Shown in pieces: positions 1-64,000 of a DNA stretch of 64,000 bases; the first letter of the stretch is position 1; each line of letters opens with the position of its first letter. The notes below the pieces were generated by a model. It saw only the letters and a program-made list of their open reading frames with translations, had not been told where the DNA came from and made no database searches. The position numbers were made by a program, and so were the translations under genes. Origin of the DNA: Ariolimax columbianus (lineage: Eukaryota; Mollusca; Gastropoda; Stylommatophora; Arionidae); NCBI GenBank assembly GCA_036924085.1, contig JAVGWX010000003.1:120838264-120902263 (forward strand). The letters are read 5' to 3'.

Positions 1-3000
1 TTCGGCCCATCTCGAGACCAGAGTCCACCAGTTATTACATCTGTACAAGACTGAATTAGTGTTTGGCCCATCTCGAGACCAGAGTCCACCAGTTATTACA
101 GGTGTACAAGACTGAATAGTGTTCGGCCCATCTCGAGACCAGAGTCCACCAGTTATTACAGGTGTACAAGATTGAATAGTGTTCGGCCCATCTCGAGACC
201 AGAGTCCACCAGTTATTACAAATGTACAAGACTGAATAGGGTTCGGCCCATCTCGAGACCAGAATCCACCAGTTATTACAGGTGTACAAGACTGAATAGT
301 GTTCGGCCCATCTCGAGAGCAGAGTCCACCACTGCGTTATTACAGGTGTACAAGACTGAATAGTGTTCGGTCCATCTCGAGACCAGAGTCCACCAGTTAT
401 TACAGGTGGACAAGACTGAATAGTGTTCGGCCCATCTCGAGACCAGAGTCCACCAGTTATTACAGGTGTACAAGACTGAATAGTGTTCGGCCAATCTCGA
501 GACCAGAGTCCCCCAGTTATTACAGATGTACAAGACTGAATAGTGTTCGGCCCATCTCGAGACCAGAGTCCACCAGTTATTACAGGTGTACAAGACTGAA
601 TAGTGTTCGGCCCATCTCGAGACCAGAGTCCACCAGTTATTACAGGTGTACAAGACTGAATAGTGTTCGGCCCATCTCGAGACCAGAGTCCACCAGTTAT
701 TACAGGTGTACAAGACTGAATAGTTTTCGGCCCATCTCGAGACCAGAGTCCGCTAGTTATTACAGGTGTACAAGACTGAATAGTGTTCGGCCAATCTCGA
801 GACCAGAGTGCGCCAGTTATTACAGGTGTACAAGACTGAATAGTGTTTGGCCCATCTCGAGACCAGAGTCCACCAGTTATTACAGGTGTACAAGACTGAA
901 TAGTGTTCGGCCCATCTCGAGACCAGAGTCCGCCAGTTATTACAGGTGTACAAGACTGAATAGTGTTCGGCCCATCTCGAGACCAGAGTCCGCCAGTTAT
1001 TACAGGTGTACAAGACTGAATAGTGTTCGGCCCATCTCAAGACCAGAGTCCACCAGTTATTACAGGTGTACAAGACTGAATAGTGTTCGGCCCATCTCGA
1101 GACCAGAGTCCGCTAGTTATTACAGGTGTACAAGACTGAATAGTGTTCGGCCCATCTCGAGACCAGAGTCCACCAGGTATTACAGGTGTACAAGACTGAA
1201 TAGTGTTCGGCCCATCTCGAGACCAGAGTCCACCACTGCGTTATTACAGGTGTACAAGACTGAATAGTGTTCGGCCCATCTCGAGACCAGAGTCCACCAG
1301 TTATTACAGGTGTACAAGACTGAATAGTGTTCGGCCCATCTCGAGACCAGAGTCCACCAGTTATTACAGGTGTACAAGACTGAATAGTGTTCGGCCCATC
1401 TCGAGACCAGAGTCCACCAGTTATTACAGGTGTACAAGACTGAATTAGTGTTCGGCCCATCTCGAGACCAGAGTCCGCTAGTTATTACAGGTGTACAAGA
1501 CTGAATAGTGTTCGGCCCATCTCGAGACCAGAGTCCACCAGTTATTACATCTGTACAAGACTGAATTAGTGTTCGGACCATCTCGAGACCAGAGTCCACC
1601 AGTTATTACAGGTGTACAAGACTGAATAGTGTTCGGCCCATCTCGAGACCAGAGTCCACCAGTTATTACAGGTGTACTAGACTGAATAGTGTTCGGCTCA
1701 TCTCGAGACCAGAGTCCACCAGTTATTACAGGTGTACAAGACTGAATAGTGTTCGGCCCATCTCGAGACCAGAGTCCACCAGTTATTACAGGTGTACAAG
1801 ACTGAATAGTGTTCGGCCCATCTCGAGACCAGAGTCCACCAGTTATTACAGGTGTACAAGACTGAATAGTGCTCGGCCCATCTCGAGACCAGAGTCCACC
1901 AGTTATTACAGGTGTACAAGACTGAATAGTGTTCGGCCCATCTCGAGACCAGAGTCCACCAGTTATTACAGGTGGACAAGACTGAATAGTGTTCGGCCCA
2001 TCTCGAGACCAGAGTCCAGCAGTTATTACATGTGTACAAGACTGAATAGTGTTCGGCCAATCTCGAGACCAGAGTCCGCCAGTTATTACAGGTGAACAAG
2101 ACTGAATAGTGTTCGGCCCATTTCGAGACCAGAGTCCACCAGTTATTACAGACGTACAAGACTGAATAGTGTTCGTCCCATCTCGAGACCAGAGTCCACC
2201 AGTTATTACAGGTGTACAAGACTGAATAGTGTTCGGCCCATCTCGAGACCAGAGTCCACCAGTTATTACAGGTGTACAAGACTGAATAGTGTTCGGCCCA
2301 TCTCGAGACCAGAGTCCACCAGTTATTACAGGTGTACAAGACTGAATAGTGTTCGGCCCATCTCGAGACCAGAGTCCGCCAGTTATTACAGGTGTACAAG
2401 ACTGAATAGTGTTCGGCCCATCTCGAGACCAGAGTCCGCCAGTTATTACAGGTGTACAAGACTGAATAGTGTTCGGCCCATCTCGAGACCAGAGTCCACC
2501 AGTTATTACAGGTGTACAAGACTGAATAGTGTTCGGCCCATCTCGAGACCAGAGTCCGCTAGTTATTACAGGTGTACAAGACTGAATAGTGTTCGGCCCA
2601 TCTCGAGACCAGAGTCCACCACTGCGTTATTACAGGTGTACAAGACTGAATAGTGTTCGACCCATCTCGAGACCAGAGTCCGCCAGTTATTACAGGTGTA
2701 CGGTGTACAAGACTGAATAGTGTTCGGCCCATCTCGAGACCAGATTCCACCAGTTATTACAGGTGTACAAGACTGAATAGTGTTCGGCCCATCTCGAGAC
2801 CAGAGTCCACCAGTTATTACAGGTGTACAAGACTGAATAGTGTTCGGCCCATCTCGAGACCAGAGTCCACCAGTTATTACAGGTGTACAAGACTGAATAG
2901 TGTTCGGCCCATCTCGAGACCAGAGTCCACCAGTTATTACAGGTGTACAAGACTGAATAGTGTTCGGCCCATCTCGAGACCAGAGTCCACCAGTTATTAC

Positions 3001-4732
3001 AGGTGTACAAGACTGAATAGTGTTCGGCCCATCTCGAGACCAGAGTCCACCAGTTATTACAGGTGTACAAGACTGAATAGTGTTCGTCCCATCTCAAGAC
3101 CAGAGTCCACCAGTTATTACAGGTGTACAAGACTGAATAGTGTTCGGCCCATCTCGAGACCAGAGTCCACCAGTTATTACAGGTGTACAAGACTGAATAG
3201 TGTTCGGCCCATCTCGAGACCAGAGTCCACCAGTTATTACAGGTGTACAAGACTGAATAGTTTTCGGCCCATCTCGAGACCAGAGTCCGCTAGTTATTAC
3301 AGGTGTACAAGACTGAATAGTGTTCGGCCAATCTCGAGACAAGCGTCCGCCAGTTATTACAGGTGTACAAGACTGAATAGTGTTCGGCCCATTTCGAGAC
3401 CAGAGTCCACCAGTTATTACAGGTGTACAAGACTGAATAGTGTTCGGCCCATCTCGAGACCAGAGTCCGCCAGTTATTACAGGTGTACAAGACTGAATAG
3501 TGTTCGGCCCATCTCGAGACCAGAGTCCGCCAGTTATTACAGGTGTACAAGACTGAATAGTGTTCGGCCCATCTCGAGACCAGAGTCCACCAGTTATTAC
3601 AGGTGTACAAGACTGAATAGTGTTCGGCCCATCTCGAGACCAGAGTCCACCACTGCGTTATTACAGGTGTACAAGACTGAATAGTGTTCGACCCATCTCG
3701 AGACCAGAGTCCGCCAGTTATTACAGGTGTACGGTGTACAAGACTGAATAGTGTTCGGCCCATCTCGAGACCAGATTCCACCAGTTATTACAGGTGTACA
3801 AGACTGAATAGTGTTCGGCCCATCTCGAGACCAGAGTCCACCAGTTATTACAGATGTACAAGACTGAATAGTGTTCGGCCCATCTCGAGACCAGAGTCCA
3901 CCAGTTATTACAGGTGTACAAGACTGAATAGTGTTCGGCCCATCTCGAGACCAGAGTCCACCAGTTATTACAGGTGTACAAGACTGAATAGTGTTCGGCC
4001 CATCTCGAGACCAGAGTCCACCAGTTATTACAGGTGTACAAGACTGAATAGTGTTCGGCCCATCTCGAGACCAGAGTCCACCAGTTATTACAGGTGTACA
4101 AGACTGAATAGTGTTCGGCCCATCTCGAGACCAGAGTCCACCAGTTATTACAGGTGTACAAGACTGAATAGTGTTCGGCTCATCTCGAGACCAGAGTCCG
4201 CCAGTTATTACAGGTGTACAAGACTGAATAGTGTTCGGCCCATCTCGAGAGCAGAGTCCACCACTGCGTTATTACAGGTGTACAAGACTGAATAGTGTTC
4301 GGCCCATCTCGAGACCAGAGTCCACCAGTTATTACAGGTGGACAAGACTGAATAGTGTTCGTCCCATCTCGAGACCAGAGTCCACCAGTTATTACAGGTG
4401 TACAAGACTGAATAGTGTTCGGCCAATCTCGAGACCAGAGTCCGCCAGTTATTACAGGTGAACAAGACTGAATAGTGTTCGGCCCATTTCGAGACCAGAG
4501 TCCACCAGTTATTACAGATGTACAAGACTGAATAGTGTTCGGCCCATCTCGAGACCAGAGTCCACCAGTTATTACAGGTGTACAAGACTGAATAGTGTTC
4601 GGCCCATCTCGAGACCAGAGTCCACCAGTTATTACAGGTGTACAAGACTGAATAGTGTTCGGCCCATCTCGAGACCAGAGTCCACCACTGCGTTATTACA
4701 GGTGTACAAAACTGAATAGTGTTCGGCCCATT
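1..4732. repeat. 60-bp satellite array (about 78 monomers), cut by the window start
   Basis: Head-to-tail copies of a 60-bp unit, each with a CTCGAG site and a TGTACA palindrome. Most copies differ by only a few substitutions. Length variants exist: +4 bp (ACTGCG at 331, 1235, 2621, 3652, 4263 and 4687), +7 bp (duplicated GGTGTAC near 2700 and 3730) and +1 bp (near 1445 and 1565). Because 60 is divisible by three, several frames stay open on both strands and give long periodic ORFs; I do not regard these as genes. On the minus strand each monomer reads RWAEHYSVLYTCNN, which continues in frame into LINE-like coding sequence beyond 4732. The left end of the array is not in the window. Confidence 0.97.
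2621..4262. repeat. Higher-order repeat blocks within the 60-bp satellite
   Basis: The +4-bp monomers at 2621 and 3652 are 1031 bp apart, which is 17 x 60 + 11. Each is followed by the same rare variants in the same order: GTTCGACCC, the +7-bp duplication, then a GATTCCACC monomer. This shows block duplication on top of monomer duplication. Other +4 monomers are spaced 904, 1386, 611 and 424 bp apart. A variant string (GGTGGACAAG, GGCCAATCTC, GGTGAACAAG, CATTTCGAG) recurs near 1970-2160 and 4320-4520. The array is therefore a mosaic of partial block duplications rather than one regular higher-order repeat. Confidence 0.8.
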
Positions 4733-5225
4733 TCTTCATTTGCATTTCCCTGTCCATAATAATCTCACATGTCACAGATTTTAGAGGCGCTGTATTCTTT
4801 TTTGTTGGTCCAAATGCTTTTTTTAATGCCTTCGTACATTGTCTTGATGTTACCAGCATCCGCTGCCGACTGTATGGACACAGAGTTGAAGCCAGTAGTC
4901 CTTTGCACATTTTCTTGCCAGTCTCTGTACTGTTTGCGGCTTTTTAAGGCTCCAAGGTCGTGCTGCTAGGGGAAATCTTAAACTCAAGGTGAGTAGATTG
5001 GCGCTTTTTAATGGTTCAAACGTTTTCCAAGGCTGTGGTGTGTATTGACCCACTGACGTGTTCCCGCTTTTCTGTAGCGCTTCCAATAGTGCCCAGTTTT
5101 GCCATTAATTCAGAGAGGGATTTTGTGAATACTTCCACCCTTTCAGGAATATCAGTTCCAGCTGTGTCTATGTGGCATTTACCTACAGGTCTTCTTGGGC
5201 TGGATTATCATTTTGTAGCAGACCA
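4733..5225 (-). pseudogene. LINE ORF2 fragment (pre-RT linker), source-like flank of the satellite
   Basis: Read on the minus strand, this encodes the linker between the endonuclease and reverse transcriptase of a non-LTR retrotransposon. Recognisable pieces in order are HIDTAGTDIPERVEVFTKSL, KCAKDYWLQLC, KALKKAFGPTKKNTAPLKSV, then MQMKKWAEHYSVLY, which crosses into the first satellite monomer at about 4732. The W-A-E-H-Y-x-x-L-Y motif is a usual landmark just before the RT domain in this LINE group. At least two frameshifts are needed to join the pieces. The RT domain that should follow is absent and replaced by the 60-bp array. Exact LINE clade not assigned. Confidence 0.82.
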
Positions 5226-5599
5226 GTGAGTGGTCAGTATCACAGTCTGCACTGTGAAACATATATGTATAAAAGTAAGTATCATGCCCTTTACAGAACG
5301 TCCCTTCTTACAACCGCCACTTATTTGGCTGTTATAAGTTTCTTGGCCAGTGGGCAGTACGGTAGGTTACCATTACTTTCCGTCCGTGGAGGAACAATCG
5401 CCAGAATAAACAATCCAGTGTCTGCCAAACACGGTGGAAATCAAACTTGGTGCGCTGGGATTGTGAAAACCATATATATATTCATTCAGGTTTGTCTGCA
5501 GCTTCGTTTGCTAGGGCAATGAGACTCATTCTTGTTATAAGATATTTCAGTTAAGTTATGTAAATGTATTTAAGTGCCAAAAACAGCACACAATGCAAT
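5226..5599. other. Intergenic, nothing recognised
   Basis: About 370 bp without a recognisable gene or repeat. A short AT-rich stretch with repeated TTTTTAGATTT lies near 5597-5620. Confidence 0.5.
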
Positions 5600-15480: not shown

Positions 15481-15884
15481 AAACTATTACTATTAATACT
15501 ATTACTACTACTACTGCTACTACTACAAGTACTACTACTACAACTACTACTACTACAACTACTACTACTGCAACGACTACTACTACTACTACAACTACTA
15601 CAACTACTACTACTACTACTGCTACTACAACTACAATAACTACTACTACTACTACCACTACAACGACTACCACTACAACGACTACTACTACTACTACTAC
15701 TACAACTACTACAACTACTACTACTACTATAACTACTAATACTACAACGACTACTACTACAACTACTGCTACTACAACTACAACGACTACTACTACAACT
15801 ACTACTACTACTACTGCTACTACAACTACAACAACTACTAATACTACTACAACTACTACTACTACAACTACTACTACTACAACG

Positions 15885-15919
<35 letters not shown>

Positions 15920-16420
15920 AACTACTACTACTACTACTGCTACTATAACTACAACAACAACTACTACTACTACCACTACAACGACTAGCACTACAACGAC
16001 TATCACTACAACGACTACTACTACTACTAAAACTACTACTACTACAACTACTACTACTACAACTACTGCTACTGCAACTACCACTACTACAACGACTACT
16101 ACTACTACTACAACTACTACAACTACTACTACTACTACTGCTACTACAACTACAACATTTACTACTACTACTACCACTACAACGACTACCACTACAACGA
16201 CTACTACAACTACTACTACTACAACTACTACTACTACAACTACTACTACTACTACTACAACTACTACTACTACAACTACTACTACTACAACTACTACAAC
16301 TACTACTACTACAACAACTACTACTACTACAACGACTACTACTACAACTACTACTACTACAATTACTACTACTACAACGACTACTACTACTACTACAACT
16401 ACTACTACTACTACTACTAC
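15481..16420. repeat. Long ACT/ACA triplet tract (about 0.94 kb)
   Basis: Almost every triplet is ACT, ACA, ACG, GCT or a one-base variant, in register for about 940 bp. Runs such as ACTACTACTACAACGACT recur. The minus frame gives a 243-codon poly-valine ORF, a low-complexity artefact. Internal duplications are likely, because the same mixed phrases reappear. Confidence 0.97.
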
Positions 16421-20360: not shown

Positions 20361-20698
20361 GAGGAGGAAAAACTATAGTCTGGTCAGGCAAAATATACTT
20401 ATCAGACATGTTAGTCAGGGTCAGGGAAAACATACTGGGTTTCACCTCGGCTTCCTAGTAAAAGGGCTACTTTCATGCCAGCCTGTCTAACGAGGGGAGG
20501 GATCGACGTGATCCCCACAGTAGTGAGCGACACGCAGATGAAGCCAAGCATAGCATAAACGCCTGGGGCACCCCATTCTACCTTCATGAGCACACTCAGG
20601 ATGTGTGGAATGCTACTGCAACCCATCACTTAACACCATTTTCAGGGCTCACAAAAGAGTAAACTTTTGCATTGTGGGCATTCGAAACGACAACAACA
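20361..20698 (+). mobile_element. Family A element with about 1.5 tandem units
   Basis: Begins GAGGAGGAAAAACTATAGTCTGG, like the GGGAGGAGGACTAACGTCTGG start of other copies. It has one full 37-bp unit (GTCAGGCAAAATATACT ... CAGACATGTTAGTCAGG), then the body (CACCTCGGCTTCCTAG, GCCTGTCTAACGAGGGGAGG, ATCGACGTGATCCCCACAGT, AGCGACACGCAGATGAAGCC) and the 3' block TTTTCAGGGCTCACAAAAGA. It ends in an ACGACAACAACAAAC tail. No clean TSD seen. Confidence 0.85.
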
Positions 20699-21900: not shown

Positions 21901-22275
21901 GTAGGGAGGAGGACTAACGTCTGGTCAGACAAAACGTACTGATCAGACACGTTAGCCAGGGTCAAGCAAAATATACTAGCCAAGACCCTCACCTTCACTT
22001 CCCCTCAGTCCTCCTTGGAAACGGGCTGTTTTCATGACAGCCTAGCTAACAAGGTGAGGGTTCGACGTGATCAACATAGTAGTTATCAGCACGCAGATGA
22101 AGTCAAGCATAGCACAGCCGCCTGGAGAACCCCGGTCCACCTTCAGCAGCACGCTCGGGGTGTGAGGAAAGCTACCACAACCTGCCACTTAACCTCCGTA
22201 TCAGAGCGCACAAAATAGCAATTCTACTCATTATGGGCATTCAACAACAACAACAATAACAACAACAACAACAAC
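21901..22275 (+). mobile_element. Family A element with about 2 tandem units
   Basis: Complete-looking copy. It has the leader GTAGGGAGGAGGACTAACGT, two 37-bp units (TGGTCAGACAAAACGTACTG, then GTCAAGCAAAATATACTAG), and the body (GCCAAGACCCTCACCTTC, GGAAACGGGCTGTTTTCATG, CAGCCTAGCTAACAAGGTGA, GGGTTCGACGTGATC). A 3' block CACTTAACCTCCGTATCAG leads to a (CAA)n tail at 22242-22275. Confidence 0.88.
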
Positions 22276-22480: not shown

Positions 22481-22857
22481 ACGTCCCATGTTGAAATCAC
22501 CTGCTAATGATGAAATTATATTGCTAGCGGCTATTTTGTGCATGTAAATATTGTACACATCCTTGTCGTACGTCTGTGGTTATTTCAAAAGCATATGTGA
22601 TTATTTCAATTATTCTTATTACATTTTTTATTCACATGGTGCAAAGCTCTCACATTAGCCATTAATTATACTTCTAATCTATAGTCCTCGAATATTGTCC
22701 ACATGTTAATACATACCTATTTTATCATAAACGTTCTCCTGGTATATGCGTGTTATTGAAATTGACTTAGTGGGAATAAAACATTAGTATTCTCAATTCC
22801 CTTACGGAAGCCAAATTTGACTTTCTTCAGCTAAAGTTCAACAATTTGACTTATTTT
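22481..22857. other. Intergenic, nothing recognised
   Basis: AT-rich, no motifs. Confidence 0.5.
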
Positions 22858-22870
22858 TAGTTCAATCATT

Positions 22871-24101
22871 AATGCCGAGGAGCAAGCAGGGTTCAGACAA
22901 GGAAGAAGCACTACAGAACAGATATTTAATTTAAGGCTGCTAAGCGAGAAATATATAGAACAGCAGCAAACACTGTATCATGTGTTTGTGGATTTTAAGA
23001 AGGCGTTTGATAGGGTATGGTATAAAGCGCTTTGGGCAACCATGAGGATGTATAAAATCAACGGAAATATTATAACGGTCCTTGAACACCTGTATAACAC
23101 GGCGTCTAGTGCAGTTCTTGTGAATGGGAGGCGAGGAGACTGGTTTCGCACATCAGTTGGTGTGAGACAGGGGTGTACACTCTCTCCAACTCTTTTCAAT
23201 ATATTCCTTGAAGGAATTATGAGTGAGGCACTTGGAGGTCACGTTGGTACTGTCAAGATAGGGGGCCGAACAATTACCAACCTTCGTTTTGCAGATGATA
23301 TCGACGGGTTGGCGGATTCAGAAGCAGAACACCAGGAATGGGTCAGAAGGCTCGATGAAACAGCTCTTTGCTATGCTATGGAGATAAACGATGGAAAGAC
23401 AAAATTAATGACCAACAACGCTACGGGCTTCAAGAGCAAGATAAAAGCTAACGGTCAGGAACTCGAAGTGATTGACCGTTTTAAATATCTTAGGTCGATT
23501 GTCAGTGATGAAGGATCAAAATGTGAAGTATTGGCCAGCATAGCACAGACAATAGCGCCGCTTGCACGGCTTAACAAAATCTGGCAAGATTAACGGTTAG
23601 CACTACGCACGAAAATCCGATTAATGCGTACACTGATCCTGTCAATATTCCTATATGCGTGTGAGACATGGACAGTTACAGCTGACCTTCAACGAAGGAT
23701 ACAGGCCTTGGAGATGAGATGTTTCCGAAAACTTTTAAACGTCACGTACAAAGATCGAGTTACAAACGAGGAAATACGAGATATAATTAGAACGGCAATA
23801 GGGCCTTTCGAAGATCTCTTGGCAACTGTCAAAAGAAGGAAACTCACTTAGTACGGTCACATATCGAGATCAAATGGTCTTGCAAACACAATCCTCCACG
23901 GGAAGGTGTATGGCAGACGACGAAGAGGCCGGTCCAAAAAGAGATGGGAGGACAACATAAAAGAATGGACCAGTCTCCGACCAGAAGAGTCACAGGCAGC
24001 GGCATCTGACAGAGAGGGATGGCGTGGAGTTGTGAGGATGTCTTCATGTGTGCCCAAACGACCTCACCGTTTACGGGATGACCTGACCTGACCTGACCTG
24101 A
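22871..24101 (+). pseudogene. 5'-truncated LINE (RT to C-terminus) with 13-bp TSD
   Basis: The youngest-looking LINE here. The open frame starts EEQAGFRQGRSTTEQIF, then HVFVDFKKAFDRVW (22979-23020, RT domain A with catalytic Asp), VGVRQGCTLSPTLFNIFLEG and LRFADDIDGLAD (FADD active site at 23288-23299). It continues through KTKLMTNN, FKYLRSIVSDEGS, SIFLYACETWTVTADLQRRI, MRCFRKLLNVTYKDRVTNEE and GRRRRGRSKKRWEDNIKEWT to PKRPHRL. Only two in-frame stops are evident (near 23591 and 23849). The 3' end is (TGACC)n at about 24079-24101. The perfect repeat TAGTTCAATCATT at 22858-22870 and 24102-24114 is the target-site duplication, which fixes both ends. Truncation removed the endonuclease and RT N-terminus. 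Confidence 0.93.
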
Positions 24102-29910: not shown

Positions 29911-30366
29911 GGGGAAGGAGACTAACGTCTGGTCAGGTAAAATATACTGATCAGACATGTTAGTCAGGGTCAGGCAAAATATACTGATCAGACATGTTAG
30001 TCAGGGTCAGGCAAAATATACTGATTAGGCATGTTAGTCAGGATCAGGTAAAATATACTGATCAGATATGTAAAGTCATGGTCAGGTAAAATTTACTGAT
30101 CAGACATGTTAGTCAGGGTCAGGTAAAATATACTGATCAGACATATTAGTCAGGATCAGGTAAAATATACTGATCAGATAAGTTAGTCAGGTTCAGATGA
30201 AATATACTGATCAGACATGTTAGTCAAAGTCAGGCAAAATAAACTGGCCAAGACCCTCACCTCGGTTTCCTTGTAGCCCTCCCTGGAAACTGGCTGTTTT
30301 CATGGAACGTTGGCTAACGAGATGAGGGATCGACGTAATCCCCGTAGTAGTGAGCGACACGCAGAT
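29911..30366 (+). mobile_element. Family A element with about 9 units of the 37-bp array, 3' truncated
   Basis: The leader GGGGAAGGAGACTAACGTCT is followed by about nine 37-bp units (ATATACTGATCAGACATGTT AGTCAGG...; ATACTGA at 29944 and 29981). The body follows (GCCAAGACCCTCACCTCGGT, CCCTGGAAACTGGCTGTTTT, TTGGCTAACGAGATGAGGGA, TCGACGTAATCCCCGTAGTA, AGCGACACGCAGAT). It then breaks off and joins an inverted family B fragment. The normal 3' block and CAA tail are missing. Confidence 0.9.
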
Positions 30367-34115: not shown

Positions 34116-34384
34116 GAACGAGAGTGTGATGGTTACGGTGGATGTTTACCGTGGATGGTTAACGTGGATGTTTACGGTAGATGGTTATAGTGGAGGGTTA
34201 CGGTGGATGGTTACGGTGGATGGTTATGGTGGATGGTTATAGTGGAGGGTTACTGTGGATGGTTACGATGGAGGGTTACGGTGGATGGTTATGGTGGATG
34301 GTTACGGAGGAGGGCTACGGTGGAGGGTTACGGTGGATGGTTACGGTGGAGGGTTACGATGGATGGTTACGGTGGATGGTAAAC
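34116..34384. repeat. 13-bp minisatellite, about 20 copies
   Basis: Unit TGGTTACGGTGGA with A/G, TTA/TAT and GAT/GAG variants. Three units make 39 bp, so frames stay open (WMVTVDGYGG-type periodic ORFs). It begins right after the RT fragment and ends at the 38-bp array. Confidence 0.95.
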
Positions 34385-36575
34385 ACGCTGGTCCGCCTAT
34401 GTTAGTCAGGGTTATGTGAAACACGCTGATCCGCCTATGTCAGGGTTAGATGAAACACGCTGATCCGCCTATATTAGTCAGGGTTATGTGAAACCCGCTG
34501 ATCCGCCTATGTTAGGGTTATGTGAAACACGCTGATACGCCTATGTTAGTCAGGGTTAGGGGAAACACACTGATCCGCCTATGTTAGTCGGGGTTAGATG
34601 AAACACGCTGATCAGCTTATATTAGTCAGGGTTATTTGAAACACGCTGATCCGCCTATGTTAGTCAGGGTTAGGGGAAACACACTGATCCGCCTATGTTA
34701 GTCAGGGTTAGATGAAACACACTGATCAGCCTATGTTAGTCAGGGTTATGTGAAACACGCTGATCCGCCTATGTTAGGGTTAGGGGAAACACGCTGATCC
34801 GCCTATGTCAGGGTTAGATTAAACACGCTGATCTGCCTTTGTTAGTCAGGGTTAGATTAAACACGCTGATCTGCCTATGTTAGTCAGCGTTAGGTGAAAC
34901 ACACTGATCCGTCAATATTAGTCAGGGTTAGGTGAAACCCTGGTGGAGTGGAGTGGTGTGCCACAGGGCTCGGTTTTGGGACCAATTTTATTCTTGATAT
35001 ATATAAATGATTTGGACATAGGAAAGGGATCCATTATTGCAAAATTTGCTGATGACACAAAACTATGTAGTAGTGTCTCATCTAAAGCAGAAGTGAATAT
35101 ATTGAGGTCGGATTTAGATAAAATTCGAGAGTGGTCTGTAAACTGACAAATGGAGTTCAATGTAGATAAATGTACAGTCATGCACATGGGTAGATCCTAT
35201 ATGGAACACAATTACAGAATGGGAGAGAAAAATATTAGAGAGATAGATAAAGAAATGGACTTAGGGGTTATAATAGATCATACATGTAAGGTGAGGGAGC
35301 AAGTGCAGGTAGTAGTAAAAAAGGCAAATACAATGTTAGGGATGATAAAAAGAAATATTAAACATATGAGCAAGGATGTGATAGTCAAACTGTATAAAGC
35401 ATTAGTTAGACCTAGATTGGAGTACTGTGTACAGGTATGGAGTCCTAATCAGAGAGGGGATATTGACATGCTGGAGAGAATACAAAAAAGAGCGACAAAG
35501 CTGATAGTGGGATTCCAGAATTACAGTTATGAGGAAAGATTTAAAAAGAAACTGGCCTACAGTGTCTGGAAGAGAAAAGAATTCGTGGTGACTTAATACA
35601 GGTGTATAAGTTGATCAGAGGAATGGATAAAGTAGACTACAACAAGTTTTTTAAAATACAACCACCAAGAAGACCAAGAGGGCACAGCTACAAGTTGACT
35701 AAGGAGAGGTCCAGATTAGATATTAGGAAGTATTTTTTTAGCCAGAGAGTTGTGAATGCTTGGAATGTATTGCCAAGTGAGATGGTGGAGGCTGTGACAG
35801 TTAATGTATTTAAAAATAGATTGGATGCGTACAGCTTCTAGAGCAAGGTGATGTAATTGGAACTGGTTGTATACAGACTCTGCAGAGTCTTCTAAACCAG
35901 TATAAAGACGTTAAGTTAAGTTAAGAAACACACTGATCCGCCTATGTTAGTCAGGGTTAGGTGAAACACACTGATCCGCCTATGTTAGTCAGGGTTAGGT
36001 GAAACACACTGATCCGCCTATGTTAGTCAGGGTTAGGTGAAACACACTGATCCGCCTATGTTAGTCAGGGTAGGTGAAACACACTGATCCGTCAATATTA
36101 GTCATGGTTAGGTGAAACACACTGATCCGCCTATGTTAGTCAGGGTTAGGTGAAACACACTGATCCGCCTATGTTAGTCATGGTAGGTGAAACACACTGA
36201 TCCGCCTATGTTAGTCAGGGTTAGGTGAAACACACTGATCCGCTTATGTTAGTCAGGGTTAGGTGAAACACACTGATCCGCCTATGTTAGTCATGGTAGG
36301 TGAAACACATGATAACGACAACACCTCACTTCCAAGTAGTTTGTCCTGGAAACAGGTTGTTCCGTGGCAGTCTGGCTAACGAGGTGTGATCGACTTTGTG
36401 ATCCCATAGTGATGAGCTCACTGATGAGCCTCACATTACACTACTTCCAGGAGAACTCCAGCTCATCTGATCAAGTACGTTTCGGGATGTAAGGAGAGCT
36501 ACTGTAACCCACCACCAAAGAAAGCCATCAAGAACACCTGCTTCAAATAGAAGGGGCATGAGCAACAACAACATT
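34385..36575 (+). mobile_element. Family A-related element with a large 38-bp array, split by a LINE
   Basis: The 38-bp unit GAAACACACTGATCCGCCTA ... GTTAGTCAGGGTTAGGT repeats over 34385-34938 and again over 35925-36304, at least 24 units including shortened ones. It aligns with the 37-bp unit of other family A copies (TGATCxGxCxATGTTAGTCA GGGT). A body follows at 36305-36575 (ACACCTCACTTCCAAGTAG, CCTGGAAACAGGTTGTTC, CAGTCTGGCTAACGAGGTG, AGAGCTACTGTAACCCACCA) with a GAGCAACAACAAC tail. The interruption 34939-35924 is a LINE. Confidence 0.87.
34939..35924 (+). pseudogene. 5'-truncated CR1/L2-like LINE inserted in the 38-bp array
   Basis: It starts inside [22 protein letters not shown] (RT domain B), [10 protein letters not shown] (active site at 35045-35056), one TGA at 35144 in place of an expected Trp, then MEFNVDKCTVMHMGRSYMEH, DLGVIIDHTCKV and LYKALVRPRLEYCVQVWSPN. 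After a frameshift near 35570 comes DLIQVYKLIRGMDKVDYNKF ... RKYFFSQRVVNAWNVLPSEM. The 3' UTR ends AAACCAGTATAAAGACG(TTAAG)n. The 5-bp direct repeat GAAAC at 34934-34938 and 35925-35929 is a candidate TSD. The 38-bp array continues on both sides. Confidence 0.93.
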
Positions 36576-42008: not shown

Positions 42009-42019
42009 AAACTGGGAGC

Positions 42020-42703
42020 GGGATCAAGATGCTGAGCAGCGCATGAGCTGCAGTGGCCAGCGACCCATAGCTGACTGCTAGCGTCATGTTGTTGTTGCTT
42101 AGATGTTTGCCTCACTGGTTTCTACTGGCGGAGGCACGCCATTTTCCACCCCAGACCGTAGTCCATTGGGCGATATCAGGACGCATAAACCAGTGCTTGA
42201 ATGCATATGTGCGTCTGTATGTATCTATGCTAGGTTTGTGCGCCCTCACAAGCTAGCCCAACCAAAGTGCAATGGAAGGGCCTCACCCTGAGGGCGCATG
42301 TGAAAATTGTGCAAGAGTGTGACTGTAGGATAGAGTCAAATGAAACAGAGTGAGGTAAGAGGAGAGAGATGGGGAAAAGTGACCCCCAGGGTGAGCCTCC
42401 CTCACTGCTAGCGTCAGGGTCAGCGAACCAAAGCTGCCAAGACCCTTTTACACCTCCACGCGGTGATCCTTGATAACGGGCTGCAGCCGGGCAGACTGGC
42501 TAAGGAGAAGAGATCGAAGAGGGAATGCTAACCCGGTACTCAAAAATGATTGCTGAAGTCGGATGTGTTGGACCGAACGGTGCAAATATCGCAGTCAAGC
42601 TGTAAACTACGACACAACGCATTCCGTTCTCTGGACTATATTCTGCTACTTAAGCCCTTTCAGGGCTTGGTAGCGGGAGATTGAGAACGAACGAAGCCAA
42701 GCC
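42020..42703 (+). mobile_element. Family B element, full-length-looking, 11-bp TSD, with nested SINE C
   Basis: The element starts GGGATCAAGATGCTGAGCAG, has one copy of the 86-bp-type 5' unit, then GCCAAGACCCTTTTACACCT, CCACGCGGTGATCC, GGGCAGACTGGCTAAGGAGA, AGTCGGATGTGTTGGACCGA and CTTAAGCCCTTTCAGGGCTT. It ends GAGAACGAACGAAGCCAAGC C. AAACTGGGAGC at 42009-42019 and 42704-42714 is an exact target duplication. The element is interrupted by SINE-like C at 42087-42403. No protein-coding capacity. The variable-length TSD and short repeated 3' tail suggest LINE-mobilised retrotransposition. Confidence 0.9.
42087..42403 (-). mobile_element. SINE-like element C nested in family B, 13-bp TSD
   Basis: It is flanked by ACTGCTAGCGTCA at 42074-42086 and 42404-42416, an exact 13-bp duplication of family B sequence. 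On the minus strand it runs from GTGAGGGAGGCTCACCCTGG to a CATCTAAGCAACAACAACA end. It shares over 150 bp with the copy at 16745-16950. The plus-strand open frame 42103-42291 mirrors an antisense frame in that copy and is not treated as a gene. Confidence 0.9.
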
Positions 42704-43011: not shown

Positions 43012-43369
43012 GGCTTGGCTTCGTTCATTATCAATCTCACACTATCAAGCACTGAAACGGCTTAAGTAGCAGAATGTAGTCCAGAGAACGGAATGCGCTG
43101 TGTCGTAGTTTACAGTTAGACTGCGATATTTGCACCTTTCGGTTCAACACATCCGACTTCAGCAAGCATTTTTTGAGTACCGGGTTAGCATTCCCTCTTC
43201 GATCCCTTCTGCTTATTAGCCAGTCTGCCCTGCTGCATCCTGTTATCCAGGATCACCACGTGGAGGTGTAGAAGGGTCTTGGCAGCTCTGGTTCGCTGGC
43301 CCTGACGCTAGCAGTCAGCTATGAGTCGCTAACCATTGCAGCTCATGTGCTGCTCAGCATCTTGATCCC
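43012..43369 (-). mobile_element. Family B element, inverted relative to 42020-42703
   Basis: Reverse complement of the family B consensus, from GCTTGGCTTCGTTCATTATC through GCAGAATGTAGTCCAGAGAA, CATCCGACTTCAGCAAGCAT and CACCACGTGGAGGTGTAGAA to CAGCATCTTGATCCC. ATTATAAATAT at 43001-43011 recurs at 43377-43387, a likely TSD. The second copy is 7 bp away from the element's 5' end, perhaps untemplated bases. Single 5' unit. Confidence 0.87.
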
Positions 43370-43445
43370 ATAATAAATTATAAATATAATTTGTGAATAA
43401 ACCTCACCTGGTTGCTATTTACATTAAATATGTTTCGGGAAGTTA

Positions 43446-51664: not shown

Positions 51665-53516
51665 TACCGTATGTTGGCTACATGTTGGCTACAGTTAAAT
51701 GTTCAGTACATGTTGGCTACAGTTAAATGTTCCGTACATGTTGGCTACAGTTAAATGTTCAGTATATGTTCTCTACAGTTAAATATTCAGTATATGTTGG
51801 CTACAGTTAAATGTTCCGAACATGTCGGCTACAGTTACATGTTCAGTATATGTTGGCTACAGTTACATGTTCAGTATATGTTGGCTACAGTTAAATGTTC
51901 AGTATATGTTGGCTACAGTTAAATGTTCCGTGCATGTTGGCTACAGTTAAATGTTCCGTACATCTTGGCTACAGTTAAATGTTCAGTATATGTTGGCTAC
52001 AGTTAAATGTTCAGTACATGTTGGCTACAGTTAAATGTTCAGTATATGTTGGCTACAGTTAAATGTTCAGTATATGTTGGCTACAGTTAAATGTTCAGTA
52101 TATGTTGGCTACAGTTAAATGTTCAGTATATGTTGGCTACAGTTCAATGTTCAGAATATGTTCCCTACAGCTAAATGTTCAGTATATGTTCCATACAGTT
52201 AAATGTTCAGTATATGTTGGCTACAGTTAAATGTTCCGTACATGTTGGCTACAGTTAAATGTTCAGTACATCTTGGCTACAGTTAAATGTTCCGTACATC
52301 TTGGCTACAGTTAAATGTTCAGTATATGTTGGCTACAGTTAAATGTTCAGTACATGTTGGCTACAGTTAAATGTTCAGTATATGTTGGCTACAGTTAAAT
52401 GTTCAGTATATGTTGGCTACAGTTAAATGTTCAGTATATGTTGGCTACAGTTAAATGTTCAGTATATGTTGGCTACAGTTCAATGTTCAGAATATGTTCC
52501 CTACAGCTAAATGTTCAGTATATGTTCCCTACAGTTAAATGTTCCGTACATGTTGGCTACAGTTAAAAGTTCAGTATATGTTGGCTACAGTTAAATGTTC
52601 AGTATATGTTGGCTACAGTAAAATTTTCAGTATATGTTGACTACAGTTAAATGTTCAGTATATGTTGGCTACATTTAAATGTCCAGTATATGTTGGCTAC
52701 AGTTAAATGTTCAGTATATGTTGGCTACAGTTAAATGTCCAGTAGATGTTGGCTACAGTTAAATGTTCAGTATATGTTGGCTACAGTTAAATTTTCAGTA
52801 CATGTTGGCTATAGTTAAATGTTCAGTATATGTTGGCTACAGTTAAATGTTCAGTATATGTTGGCTACAGTTAAATGTTCAGTATATGTTGGCTACAGTT
52901 CAATGTTCAGTATATGTTCCCTACAGCTAAATGTTCAGTATATGTTCCCTACAGTTAAATGTTCCGTACATGTTGGCTACAGTTAAATGTTCAGTATATG
53001 TTGGCTACAGTTAAATGTTCAGTATATGTTGGCTACAGTTAAATTTTCAGTATATGTTGACTACAGTTAAATGTTCAGTATATGTTGGCTACATTTAAAT
53101 GTCCAGTATATGTTGGCTACAGTTAAATGTTCAGTATATGTTGGCTACAGTTAAATGTCCAGTATATGTTTGCTACAGTTAAATGTTCAGTATATGTTCC
53201 CTACAGCTAAATGTTCAGTATATGTTCCCTACAGTTAAATGTTCCGTACATGTTGGCTACAGTTAAATGTTCAGTAGATGTTGGCTACAGTTAAATGTTC
53301 AGTATATGTTGGCTACAGTTGAATTTCCAGTATATGTTGACTACAGTTAAATGTTCAGTATATGCTGGCTACATTTAAATGTCCAGTATATGTTGGCTAC
53401 AGTTAAATGTCCAGTATATGTTGGCTACAGTTAAATGTCCAGTATATGTTGGCTACAGTTAAATGTTGAGTATATGTTCCCTACAGTTAAATGTTCAGCA
53501 TATGTTGGCTACAGTT
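51665..53516. repeat. 28-bp satellite, about 66 copies
   Basis: Unit CAGTATATGTTGGCTACAGT TAAATGTT. Marker variants (CAATGTTCAGAATATGTTCC, CTACAGCTAAATG, CCGTACATG) recur in the same order near 52143, 52479, 52891 and 53173, spaced in multiples of 28, so block duplications occurred. 28 is not divisible by three and no long ORF results. Confidence 0.97.
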
Positions 53517-53519
53517 AAA

Positions 53520-57229: not shown

Positions 57230-59150
57230 ACTTATGTTTAAGGAGTCTCTGTAGCGTTTCTTCTGCCAGCTGATGGGCGTCTGCATGTTTTTTGAGTTCC
57301 CCGTATAGCAGCTGCTCATGGAGGCGTTTATCAGACTTGCGAACAACAGGTGCCGTCCATCTTATCTGAGCTTCTTACAGAAACCCGAGGATGCTAAACA
57401 TGTTTGAGTTGTTAAGAGTTTCAGAGTTCAGTACTTTGTCCTGCCACCTGATTCTGAGCAGTATGTGGAGATAGCTCTTGTATTGACAATTCAGCTGTCT
57501 GGCATGTCTGCTATACACTGTCTATGTTTTGCAGTGATGCAACAAAGTGGTTAGCATAAAAGTGTGATACACTTTTACCTTGATGGCGACACTGATGCCT
57601 TGTCGGTTTCTGATGTCCGGTTGCAGCCTCACAAGCTAAGAGCTTGCCTTTCATGCTGATGCAATTTGAGTCGATATTCGCTTCTCTGGTGCGAGTACTG
57701 CCTAGGTATGTGAAGATATCGACTGCCTGGAGACATTGGTTCTGTGTGGTAATATTTGGTTCAATGTACGGCGTCGCAGTAGCCCGTTAGAAGAGCAGTT
57801 TTCTTAGTGTTGTGTGTTGTTTGTGTGACCAAAAATATTGCACACTACCGAAAACTCCGACATAATGTCTTGAATGTCTTGTTCTGAGCAAGTGCTAATG
57901 GCATTGTCATCAGCAAACATGATACCCAAGATTGGTGGCACTATTCACCTTTGTATTTTGTTGTTGTTTGTGAATGTCCACATTGATTAGGTTACTCTTT
58001 TGTGCGCCCTGAAAGGGACGTTAAGTGGCGGGTTTCAGTAGCTTTCCTCACATACCGAGCGTGCTGATGAAGGTGGACCGGGGTCCTCCAGGCGGTCGTG
58101 CTATTCTTCAACTGCGTGTCACTCACTACTACGGAGGGACACGTCGATCCTGCACCTAGTTAGCCAGTCTGCCATGAAAATAGCCCGTTTCCAGGGAGGG
58201 CTACTAGGAAGCCGAAGTGAGGGTCTTGGCCAGTATGTTTTGCCTGACCCTAACTAACATGCCTAATCAGTATGTTTTCCCTGACCCTGACTAACATGCC
58301 TAATCAGTATATTTTGCCTGACCCTGACTAACATGCCTAATCAGTATGTTTTGCTTGACCCTGACTAACATGTCTAATCAGTATATTTTGCCTGACCCTG
58401 ACTAACATGTCTAATCAGTATGTTTTGCCTGACAATGACTAACATGTCTAATCAGTATATTTTGCCTGACCCTGACTAACATGTCTAATCAGTATATTTT
58501 GCCTGACCCTGACTAACATGTCTAATCAGTATATTTTGCCTGACCCTGACTAACATGTCTGATCAGTATATTTTGCCTGACCAGACGTTAGTCTTCCTCT
58601 CCCTAACCTTGGTGTAAAACCTCAGGTCTCTAGGATTGAACAGCCGACCTTGCGTCCTGTACGTTTTGTGTATAGTATCAGAAACCATTACTGCAACGAC
58701 CATGCTAAACAGTATCAGTGCAAGCACACTACTGTGCTTGACATGGTTAGTGACTAGGAAGGCCCAATCCCATTCTCCTTCGTGCAGTACACGAGTCATC
58801 ATGAAACTGACAAATAGATGTAATGAATATGCCCGGACAACTAAACTTCACCATGATTTGCAAGAGCCCGTCTCTGTTGACAGGTGTCAAACGTCTTGAT
58901 CTGGTCTACAAAAACTGAGTGCATGTCACTATGTTGTTCTTGACTTTCCTTCTGGAGTTGGTCTGCTGCATACATCATGTCGACCATACCACGACACGCT
59001 CGAATCTCTGAGTGTAGGCCCTACACAAGATGACTATTTAGGCGACTGAGCAGGACTCGGGCCAGAACTTGCCCACAATTGACAGGATTGAGGTTCCTCT
59101 GTGGTTATCGCGGTAGTGACAATTACCCTTTCGTTTGCACAAGTGTGTTA
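57230..59150 (-). pseudogene. LINE RT pseudogene split by a family A element
   Basis: Read on the minus strand from 59150: LNPVNCGQVLARVLLSRLNS, SEIRACRGMVDMMYAADQLQ, VFVDQIKTFDT (RT domain A; catalytic Asp in FVD retained), VLHEGEWDWAFLVTNHVKHS SVLALILFSM and GRLFNPRDLRFYTKV, ending about 58600. After the inserted element it resumes with LGIMFADDNAISTCSEQDIQ (FADD, 57908-57919), then VKVYHTFMLTTLLHHC, TVYSRHARQLNCQYKS, RIRWQDKVLNSETL and APVVRKSDKRLHEQLLYGEL. Stops and frameshifts are scattered. Both halves belong to one clade and are in the correct order, so this is one copy. Confidence 0.88.
57963..58600 (-). mobile_element. Family A element with about 10 units, inserted in a LINE
   Basis: Minus strand: leader AGGGAGAGGAAGACTAACGT, about ten 37-bp units, body (GCCAAGACCCTCACTTCGGC, CCCTGGAAACGGGCTATTTT, CAGACTGGCTAACTAGGTGC, AGTGAGTGACACGCAGTTG), 3' block CCGCCACTTAACGTCCCTTT CAGGGCGCAC, and a CAAACAACAACA tail. 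The flanks show only a weak, imperfect repeat (ACCAAGGTT / ACAAAGGTG) that might be an aged TSD. Confidence 0.9.
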
Positions 59151-60305: not shown

Positions 60306-61612
60306 GCTTGGCGTGGCTTCGTTCGTTCTCAATCTCTCGCCACCAAACCCTGAAAGGGCTTAAGTAGCAGAATGTCGTCCAAAGAACGGAATGCGTTGTG
60401 TCGTAGTTTACAGCTTGACTGCGATATTTGCACCTTTCGGTTCAACACATCCGACATCACCAAACATTTTTAGAGTGCTAGGTTAGCATTCTCTCTTCGA
60501 TCCCTTCTCCTTAGCCAACCTGCCCTGCTGCAGCCTGTTATCCAGGATCACCACGTGGAGGTGTAGAAGGGTCTTGGCAGCTCTGTTTCGCTGGCCCTGA
60601 CGCTAGCAGTCAGCTATGGGTCGCTGACCACTGCAGCTCATGCGCTGCTCAGCATCTTGATCCCAGCTCTGTTTCGCTGGCTCTGACGCTAGCAATCAGC
60701 TATGGGTCGCTGACCACTGCAGCTCATGCGCTGCTCGGCATCTTGATCCCAGCTCTGTTTCGCTGGCTCTGACGCTAGCAGTCAGCTATGGGTCGCTGAC
60801 CACTGCAGCTCATGCGCTGCTCAGCATCTTGATCCCAGCTCTGTTTCGCTGGCCCTGACGCTAGCAGTCAGCTATGGGTCGCTGACCACTGCAGCTTATG
60901 CGCTGCTCGGCATCTTGATCCCAGCTCTGTTTCGCTGGCCCTGACGCTAGCAGTCAGCTATGGGTCGCTGACCACTGCAGCTTATGCGCTGCTCGGCATC
61001 TTGATCCCAGCTCTGTTTCGCTGGCCCTGACGCTAGCAGTCAGCTATGGGTCGCTGACCACTGCAGCTCATGCGCTGCTCGGCATCTTGATCCCAGATCT
61101 GTTTCGCTGGCCCTGACGCTAGCAGTCAGCTATGGGTCGCTGACCACTGCAGCTCATGCGCTGCTCGGCATCTTGATCCCAGCTCTGTTTCGCTGGCCCT
61201 GACGCTAGCAGTCAGCTATGGGTCGCTGACCACTGCAGCTCATGCGCTGCTCGGCATCTTGATCCCAGCTCTGTTTCGCTGGCTCTGACGCTAGCAGTCA
61301 GCTATGGGTCGCTGACCACTGCAGCTCATGCGCTGCTCAACATCTTGATCCCAGCTCTGTTTCGCTGGCCCTGACGCTAGCAGTCAGCTATGGGTCGCTA
61401 ACCACTGCAGCTTATGCGCTGCTCGGCATCTTGATCCCAGCTCTATTTCGCTGGCCCTGACGTTAGCAGTCAGCTATGGGTCGCTGACCACTGCAGCTTA
61501 TGCGCTGCTCGGCATCTTGATCCCAGCTCTGTTTCGCTGGCCCTGACGCTAGCAGTCAGCTATGGGTCGCTGACCACTGCAGCTCATGCGCTGCTCAGCA
61601 TCTTGATCCCGT
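60306..61612 (-). mobile_element. Family B element with a 12-copy 86-bp 5' array, 13-bp TSD
   Basis: The minus strand begins with twelve 86-bp units (GGGATCAAGATGCCGAGCAG ... GCTAGCGTCAGGGCCAGCGA AACAGAGCT), counted from GATCCC at 60659, 60745 and on to 61605. The body follows (GCCAAGACCCTTCTACACCT, GGCAGGTTGGCTAAGGAGA, GGTCGGATG-type block, CAACGCATTCCGTTCTTTGG) and an end GAGAACGAACGAAGCCACGC CAAGC. TAATGTTTACTTG at 60293-60305 and 61613-61625 is an exact TSD, so the array lies inside the mobile unit. The 86-bp unit is single-copy in the elements at 42020 and 43012. Confidence 0.93.
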
Positions 61613-63771: not shown

Positions 63772-64000
63772 ATGTGAGGGGAGCAGCCTCGCATGAGCTG
63801 CAGTGATCAGCGACCCATAGCGGAATGCTAGCGTCAGGGCCTTTCTACACCTCCACGCGGTGATTATGGAAAACAGGCTGCATCAGGGCAGACTGGCCAA
63901 GAAGAAGGCATCGGAAAGGGAATGCGAGCCCGGTACTCAAAAAATGCTTGCTGAAGTCGGATGTGTTGGACCGAAAGGTGCAAATATCGCAGTCAAGCTG
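63772..64000 (+). mobile_element. Family B element, cut by the window end
   Basis: GCATGAGCTGCAGTGATCAG, TAGCGTCAGGGCC, TACACCTCCACGCGGTGATT, GGGCAGACTGGCCAAGAAG, AGTCGGATGTGTTGGACCGA and AAGGTGCAAATATCGCAGTC align collinearly with 42020-42703. A short piece around GCCAGCG...GCCAAGACC is deleted. Continues past 64000. Confidence 0.9.

Follow-up and report, generated by a model that had tools for sequence, protein, structure and literature searches.

A 119-unit tandem array in Ariolimax columbianus, derived from a coding segment of a LINE, and its short sibling arrays

We analysed a stretch of 64,000 nucleotides from the gastropod Ariolimax columbianus (the window, G000:C3:120838264-120902263, in a genome of 2.29 Gb and 401 contigs), which begins inside a long tandem array of 60- and 64-base-pair (bp) units. 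This focal array lies in a copy of a long interspersed nuclear element (LINE), and its monomer is a 64-bp piece of the LINE open reading frame (ORF), located between the endonuclease (EN) and the reverse transcriptase (RT). Other copies of the LINE, here called siblings, carry one unit or a short series of units at the same place. We think it likely that the segment was duplicated in a mobile LINE, that the resulting array was inherited by further copies, and that later local growth brought the focal copy to 119 units.

Results

The focal array and its edges

Tandem Repeats Finder (TRF) reports window positions 1-4731 as one tandem array with a period of 60, 78.2 copies and 95% matches. The array extends 2,468 bp to the left of the window, as read from the neighbouring DNA (L009), and ends at about G000:C3:120835796. 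In total it comprises 119 units and 7,202 bp, in agreement with an initial annotation of the window, which had put it at more than 4.7 kb. The spacings between unit anchors are 60 bp (99), 64 bp (9), 61 bp (8) and 67 bp (2). By sequence, nine units belong to the 64-bp type, those at the two ends of the array among them, and the 60-bp majority carries a 4-bp deletion relative to that type. The features in the window are as follows.

1..4734, minus strand: window portion of the tandem array, 78 units, from TRF and unit anchors; the rest lies outside the window
4671..4734, minus strand: first unit in LINE sense, a 64-bp unit that continues directly from the LINE ORF (KKWAEHYSVLYTCNNAVVDSGLE), at the place equivalent to that in single-unit siblings
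4735..5260, minus strand: LINE sequence upstream of the array, EN-RT linker; sibling homology begins at about 5260, and the domains were read in sibling L014

At the right edge of the array (4734/4735) the sequence in LINE sense is ...KALKKAFGPTKKNTAPLKS...MQMKKWAEHYSVLYTCNNAVVDSGLE, followed by the next unit, and the LINE frame KALKKAFGPTKKNTAPLKSV...MQMKKWAEHYSVLY is as the initial annotation described it. The same annotation had this frame running unbroken into the array. It does so through the first unit (WAEHYSVLYTCNNAVVDSGLEMGRTLFSLVHL, then two stops); the next unit, however, is frame-shifted and stops at TAATAA, since the first unit is 64 bp long and the second is therefore read in another frame. 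On the left the array closes with a unit ending in GCTCTC, and the LINE resumes directly as AACGAAATTGAGAC..., leading on to a stretch that, translated by eye, reads ATGRDGIPAEI. Judged by matches to L014, the focal LINE copy runs from about window position 5260 to about C3:120834884, with some 0.4 kb of other sequence intervening. The focal copy, which is dead, lacks a counterpart to about 1.4 kb of L014, and much of the RT region falls in this missing part.

We take the size of the focal array from the assembly. Tandem arrays are often mis-sized, and some inner segments are exact copies of one another (the longest is 323 bp, with a lag of 1,091 bp), which could point to an assembly artefact. 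The variants, however, stand in varied order among the units, and LINE sequence is present at both edges; we regard an artefact as improbable. Beyond the focal locus, a 30-base core of the unit has 769 matches in the genome (three or fewer mismatches), of which 109 lie in the focal array; these matches are not due to chance, as the reversed control gave none. The tandem junction has 414 matches, 118 of them in the focal array, again with none for the reversed control.

The source LINE and its siblings

A genome search with window positions 4650-5225 gave 257 matches (40 of 621 candidates were scored). Our first sample of 31 siblings, which is not a random one, comprised about 9 kb at each of 19 loci (L010-L028) and about 2 kb at each of 12 (L029-L040). 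A LINE match lies upstream of the units in all 31 and downstream also in 27. Twelve siblings, two of them with a partial unit, carry one unit and 19 carry 2 to 11; with the focal copy counted, the single-unit state is thus found in 12 of 32 copies. For a second sample we searched with the 30-base downstream LINE edge, which occurs at 264 places in the genome (three or fewer mismatches), 33 of them exact, and took the first 23 exact matches in listed order, namely 20 new loci plus L015, L011 and L018. Five of the new loci are tandem (4, 11, 3, 4 and 5 units) and 15 are single-unit; adding L015 and L011 (tandem) and L018 (single) makes 7 tandem loci among the 23 picked by the downstream edge.

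In single-unit copies of the L018 type the order is ...ATGCAAATGAA, the unit GAGATGGGCCGAACAC...GACTCTGCTCTC, then AACGAAATTGAGATTCTGCAGG. Between the 64-bp unit of the array and single-unit LINE copies the match is 88-95% over 56-64 bp, and it covers the full length of the unit in L014, L017, L018 and L024. An array-free source transposable element (TE) is present in the genome, and the unit is homologous to a segment of this TE over its length. The initial annotation had proposed that the satellite arose from LINE coding sequence and still adjoins its source junction, and had asked whether the similarity in relatives might be limited to WAEHYSVLY. Single-unit relatives bear the proposal out, as the entire monomer of about 64 bp matches at the same place. 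On one strand of L014 an Exo_endo_phos_2 match (E 6.1e-5, 23.3 bits, below the cut-off of 27.4) is followed by RVT_1 matches (E 1.2e-21, above the cut-off, and 2.6e-5, below it). By this order of EN and RT domains the element is classed as a non-long-terminal-repeat retrotransposon, that is, a LINE; its motif and length suggest an RTE-type clade. Both edges of the focal array belong to the same LINE, and they join it at sites that are adjacent in single-unit siblings, so that the monomer is a piece of the LINE ORF.

The same comparison bears on the possibility that an unrelated 60-bp satellite was there first and was invaded or captured by the LINE. We found nothing in support of it; four of the 20 new loci of the second sample (L044, L045, L046 and L060) lack a LINE match upstream within the sequence read, as expected of 5′-truncated copies. 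The whole 64-bp unit, however, is present at that place in single-unit siblings, and the flanking LINE matches of the first sample likewise oppose such an origin, which we regard as highly improbable. The landing of the LINE in a pre-existing satellite, named in the initial annotation as an alternative to be checked, is excluded at the focal locus, where the LINE resumes on the far side at the expected base, directly past the last unit.

The initial annotation had further suggested that the duplication arose through a near-repeat, ATGGGCCGAAC, encoding WAE in one place and EMGRT in the other. Within the array this string indeed reappears at intervals of 60-64 bp, but only because the unit itself does. 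The near-repeat is not in the LINE, where single-unit copies read NEIEILQ (AACGAAATTGAGATTCTG) after ...VVADSAL, and EMGRT is the start of the following unit in a shifted frame. The nearest short match, GAGAT, would yield a 73-bp unit, and such a junction occurs in no array that we examined. Duplication by this route is hardly credible. We detected no microhomology between the source edges TCTC/GAGATGG, as read from sibling copies, and no short direct repeats at the ends of the founding unit; such repeats have been described for some TE-derived arrays but are not a requirement. Overall, the interpretation given in the initial annotation is partly supported.

A founder array or repeated birth

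We compared the inner junctions between units in the 24 tandem sibling loci. Of 98 such junctions, 63 read TCTCGAGATGG and 13 read TCTCAAGATGG, the latter being what CpG decay at the former would be expected to produce; 76 junctions are therefore identical but for one base. At least one common junction is found in 23 of the 24 loci, with L046 as the sole exception. The units themselves differ by position. The end GGTCTC is present in 48 of 76 non-final units of sibling arrays (18 GC, 10 other), whereas none of 19 final units of tandem copies has it (14 GC, 5 other), and it occurs in one of 12 single units. A 60-bp unit with ATACCTGG, which combines the 4-bp deletion with an A>C change, is present in 11 of the 24 tandem loci; it was not found in any of their 24 final units or in any of 27 single-unit loci. 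In nine of the 11 carriers these units form an unbroken run from the first unit, the exceptions being L049 and L037. The common junctions and the distribution of ATACCTGG units suggest a founder array carried in a mobile LINE lineage. As tandem copies with the common junction and unit variants are scattered over the genome, the first duplication probably took place elsewhere than at the focal locus.

The history that we favour would have four steps. The 64-bp ORF segment between EN and RT would have undergone a head-to-tail duplication in one mobile LINE of this family, presumably as a single founder event. A minority of the copies from an old transposition burst would then have inherited the tandem state. 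The number of units would since have shifted in each copy, presumably through slippage or unequal exchange, and the units of a copy would have been partly homogenised. In the focal copy this process would have gone on to 119 units, most of which carry the 4-bp deletion.

Alternatively, the segment may be a hot spot at which independent tandem duplications occurred in many LINE copies after insertion, without inheritance. Other segments of the same LINE have indeed expanded repeatedly and with differing periods: one RT segment with periods of 46, 61 and 22 bp (L021, L025 and L011), and a C-terminal segment with periods of 69 and 67 bp and different breakpoints (L012 and L025). Several results weigh against a founder array. 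The remaining 22 inner junctions deviate from the common form (six come from the 46-bp units of L047, three from L046, and the rest are small changes). In L046, L055 and L026 local variants are common to every unit of the locus, the final one included, which also fits a fresh local duplication there. In a tree of the LINE flanks (columns projected on L014) the tandem state is scattered (8 changes, against a shuffled mean of 9.9, with 57 of 500 shuffles as low), and the 60-bp type does not cluster (its 12 carriers require 11 changes, against a mean of 9.9 under shuffling, and 460 of 500 shuffles need no more); the latter result moved our weight slightly toward recurrent origin. The row closest to the focal copy is the single-unit L023 (88/93).

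The flank tree, however, is star-like (of its 29 inner branches one is starred, and the bootstrap had not settled) and can therefore neither show nor exclude inheritance. Its unclustered pattern would be explained by gain, loss and homogenisation after insertion, and equally by recurrent birth at a hot segment. Where other segments of the LINE differ in period and breakpoint, the junctions at this one are nearly uniform, yet recurrent origin would have to produce them independently; it would likewise have to account for ATACCTGG units that are missing from final and single units, and for the GGTCTC end, which is common in non-final units and absent from the final units of tandem copies. We consider recurrent origin distinctly less probable than a founder array, though a rival to be taken seriously.

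Growth and turnover after insertion

The flanks of the focal copy diverge by 7.4% from the family majority, within the range of the siblings (5.5-9.6%). The 99 focal 60-bp units, by comparison, differ on average by 1.85% from their own majority, and 36 of the 99 are identical to it. The lower divergence of the units indicates that the focal array grew after insertion. Over the 24 tandem loci units are less divergent within loci (5.8%) than between loci (9.4%); divergence between loci is 10.4% for single units and 13.9% for flanks. L027 and L036, which are near-identical and lie some 0.13 Mb from each other on C20, have seven and six units, respectively, and L047 carries a shortened 46-bp unit six times alongside 60- and 64-bp units. 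The pattern of growth fits slippage or unequal exchange in place, and the results do not tell the two apart. Folding of the single-stranded DNA is weak (z of -2.04 for two units and -1.67 for the single-copy segment), and we do not claim a hairpin mechanism.

Reading frame of the units

The 64-bp unit shifts the frame, and the unit that follows it then runs into TAATAA or a stop nearby. The 60-bp unit preserves the frame and reads, in 20 codons, RWAEHYSVLYTCNTWRTLVS. In L025 a frame of 177 amino acids is open through four units. When the arrays are translated from the start of the unit, L015 (six units) and L025 (four units) show no stop, L035 shows one, and stops are present in L037, L039, L040, L046, L047, L049, L055 and L056. 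The extra length is divisible by 3 in 9 of 17 tandem copies (L039 and L040 are outside the 17), compared with 5.7 expected by chance, and none of five arrays in the second sample consists purely of 60-bp units. Given these frame counts, the stops in most arrays and the lack of purely 60-bp arrays in the second sample, selection for the frame is not supported. A protein search with the 177-residue repeat ORF of L025 returned 32 candidates, none at E 0.001. Pfam matches of this ORF to DUF2459 and LRR_RI_capping were below their cut-offs and were taken as noise.

A coding variable number tandem repeat in the EN-RT linker is nevertheless conceivable. The 4-bp deletion would have given a 20-codon unit, and elements bearing the repeat would have stayed mobile and spread the founder array. 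We advance this only tentatively and think it rather unlikely; if it were true, every landing site would be a possible seed of a new satellite.

Other arrays in the LINE

We ran TRF on the 19 long sibling loci and found 12 other arrays in 52,310 bp of LINE, compared with 53 in 127,209 bp of the surrounding DNA of those loci, which holds other repeats too. The arrays within the LINE (period in bp x copies, all from TRF) are listed by locus.

L018:6019-8602 (LINE-sense coordinates, L018 read plus): 40 bp x ~64, a 2.6-kb array inside the LINE
L021: 37 x 10, 48 x 7 and 46 x 11
L023: 46 x 16
L025: 61 x 4, 67 x 4 and 51 x 2
L012: 69 x 4
L014: 50 x 2.3
L026: 31 x 2
L011: 22 x 1.9

For 11 of the 12 a single-copy counterpart exists in at least one of L014, L022, L024 and L025; the 22-bp unit of L011 matches only L025, in which this segment also forms an array. 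In L021 the 46-bp unit spans from GGGAGACT to a near copy of GGGAGACT. Since 19 copies hold 12 further arrays, local tandem amplification is general in this LINE. Segments of dispersed repeats have often turned into minisatellites in the loci that we read; the focal array is a large example of this.

Two of these loci deserve separate description. LINE-sense positions 3377-6358 of L021 (reverse complement of the locus) hold four separate internal arrays with periods of 37, 48, 60/64 and 46 bp. In L019 the segment that forms the 40-bp array of L018 is present as a 41-bp x 5 array in the opposite orientation.

Other repeats in the window

The window contains an 86-bp array at 60578-61610 (12 copies, 97%). 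Its unit is single or nearly so at 42016-42086, 43283-43370 and 63781-63841, and is also found in eight of the sibling loci (L010, L018, L019, L020, L021, L022, L023 and L028); a dispersed repeat probably gave rise to this array as well. Arrays of a 37/38-bp repeat lie at 20382-20437, 21923-21977, 29931-30246, 34381-34938, 35925-36313 and 58231-58582, and the repeat is also present in L013, L016, L019, L021 and L028. A 28-bp array at 51682-53519 (about 65 copies, 92% matches) has a unit without a match in the 19 long loci. In addition, positions 22850-23593 hold an open frame of 247 amino acids with an RVT_1 match (E 6.3e-28), and positions 15483-16420 are nearly 1 kb of an ACT triplet repeat.

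Discussion

Satellites derived from jumping genes, LINE ORF2 included, are already known. The available text of a review (PMC9659126) describes PROsat of Phodopus, Pvc20 of Phoca and HinfI/CR1 of chicken, which resemble the focal array as tandem repeats holding LINE ORF2 sequence. Here, by contrast, the whole unit is a 60/64-bp piece of the ORF, and both source junctions and a sibling series of 1-11 units are found in one genome; we make no claim about such a series in PROsat, Pvc20 or HinfI/CR1. A part of LINE ORF2 between domains acts as a separate repeat also in the trematode CR1-renegade, which, according to the portion of PMC8392823 consulted, is not tandemly organised, unlike the linker unit described here.

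Variable numbers of units within a LINE have precedents in mouse L1. Its ORF1 contains a length polymorphism region of 66- and 42-bp repeats, thus a tandem repeat within a LINE ORF (PMC3600994, in part). Those repeats belong to the coiled-coil part of ORF1 in subfamily consensuses and are present in few copies, whereas the present ones lie in the EN-RT linker, reach from 1 to 119 copies and commonly include frame-breaking 64-bp units. The monomers of the mouse L1 5′ untranslated region (UTR) also vary in number by copy; in the sections of PMC6454616 and PMC9022269 that we used they are promoter units in the UTR, and the units here are coding sequence. Human TE-derived minisatellites number 7,276 arrays, or 23% of minisatellites and satellites, and are similar in expanding over time by local duplication of units, as stated in excerpts of PMC3389668. 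For Alu-derived arrays the same excerpts cite short flanking direct repeats, of which none was found at the 64-bp unit. Among titles and the beginnings of abstracts, with few subscription journals covered, we found neither a description of a LINE ORF2 minisatellite nor one of octopus or cephalopod minisatellites, and the main text of a paper on Octopus vulgaris repeats (PMC13282606), as far as it was available, has no word starting with 'satellite'. What is new here is the graded sibling series at one site, which was probably inherited, and the frame-preserving unit.

The beginnings of satellites are hard to observe, since neither the source nor the first stages normally survive. In this genome many copies of one LINE can be read at one site with 1 to 119 units, which makes birth, growth, loss and homogenisation measurable against the single-unit state. 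The 12 further arrays in the 19 long loci offer, in addition, a route to estimating how frequently minisatellites form and where their breakpoints lie.

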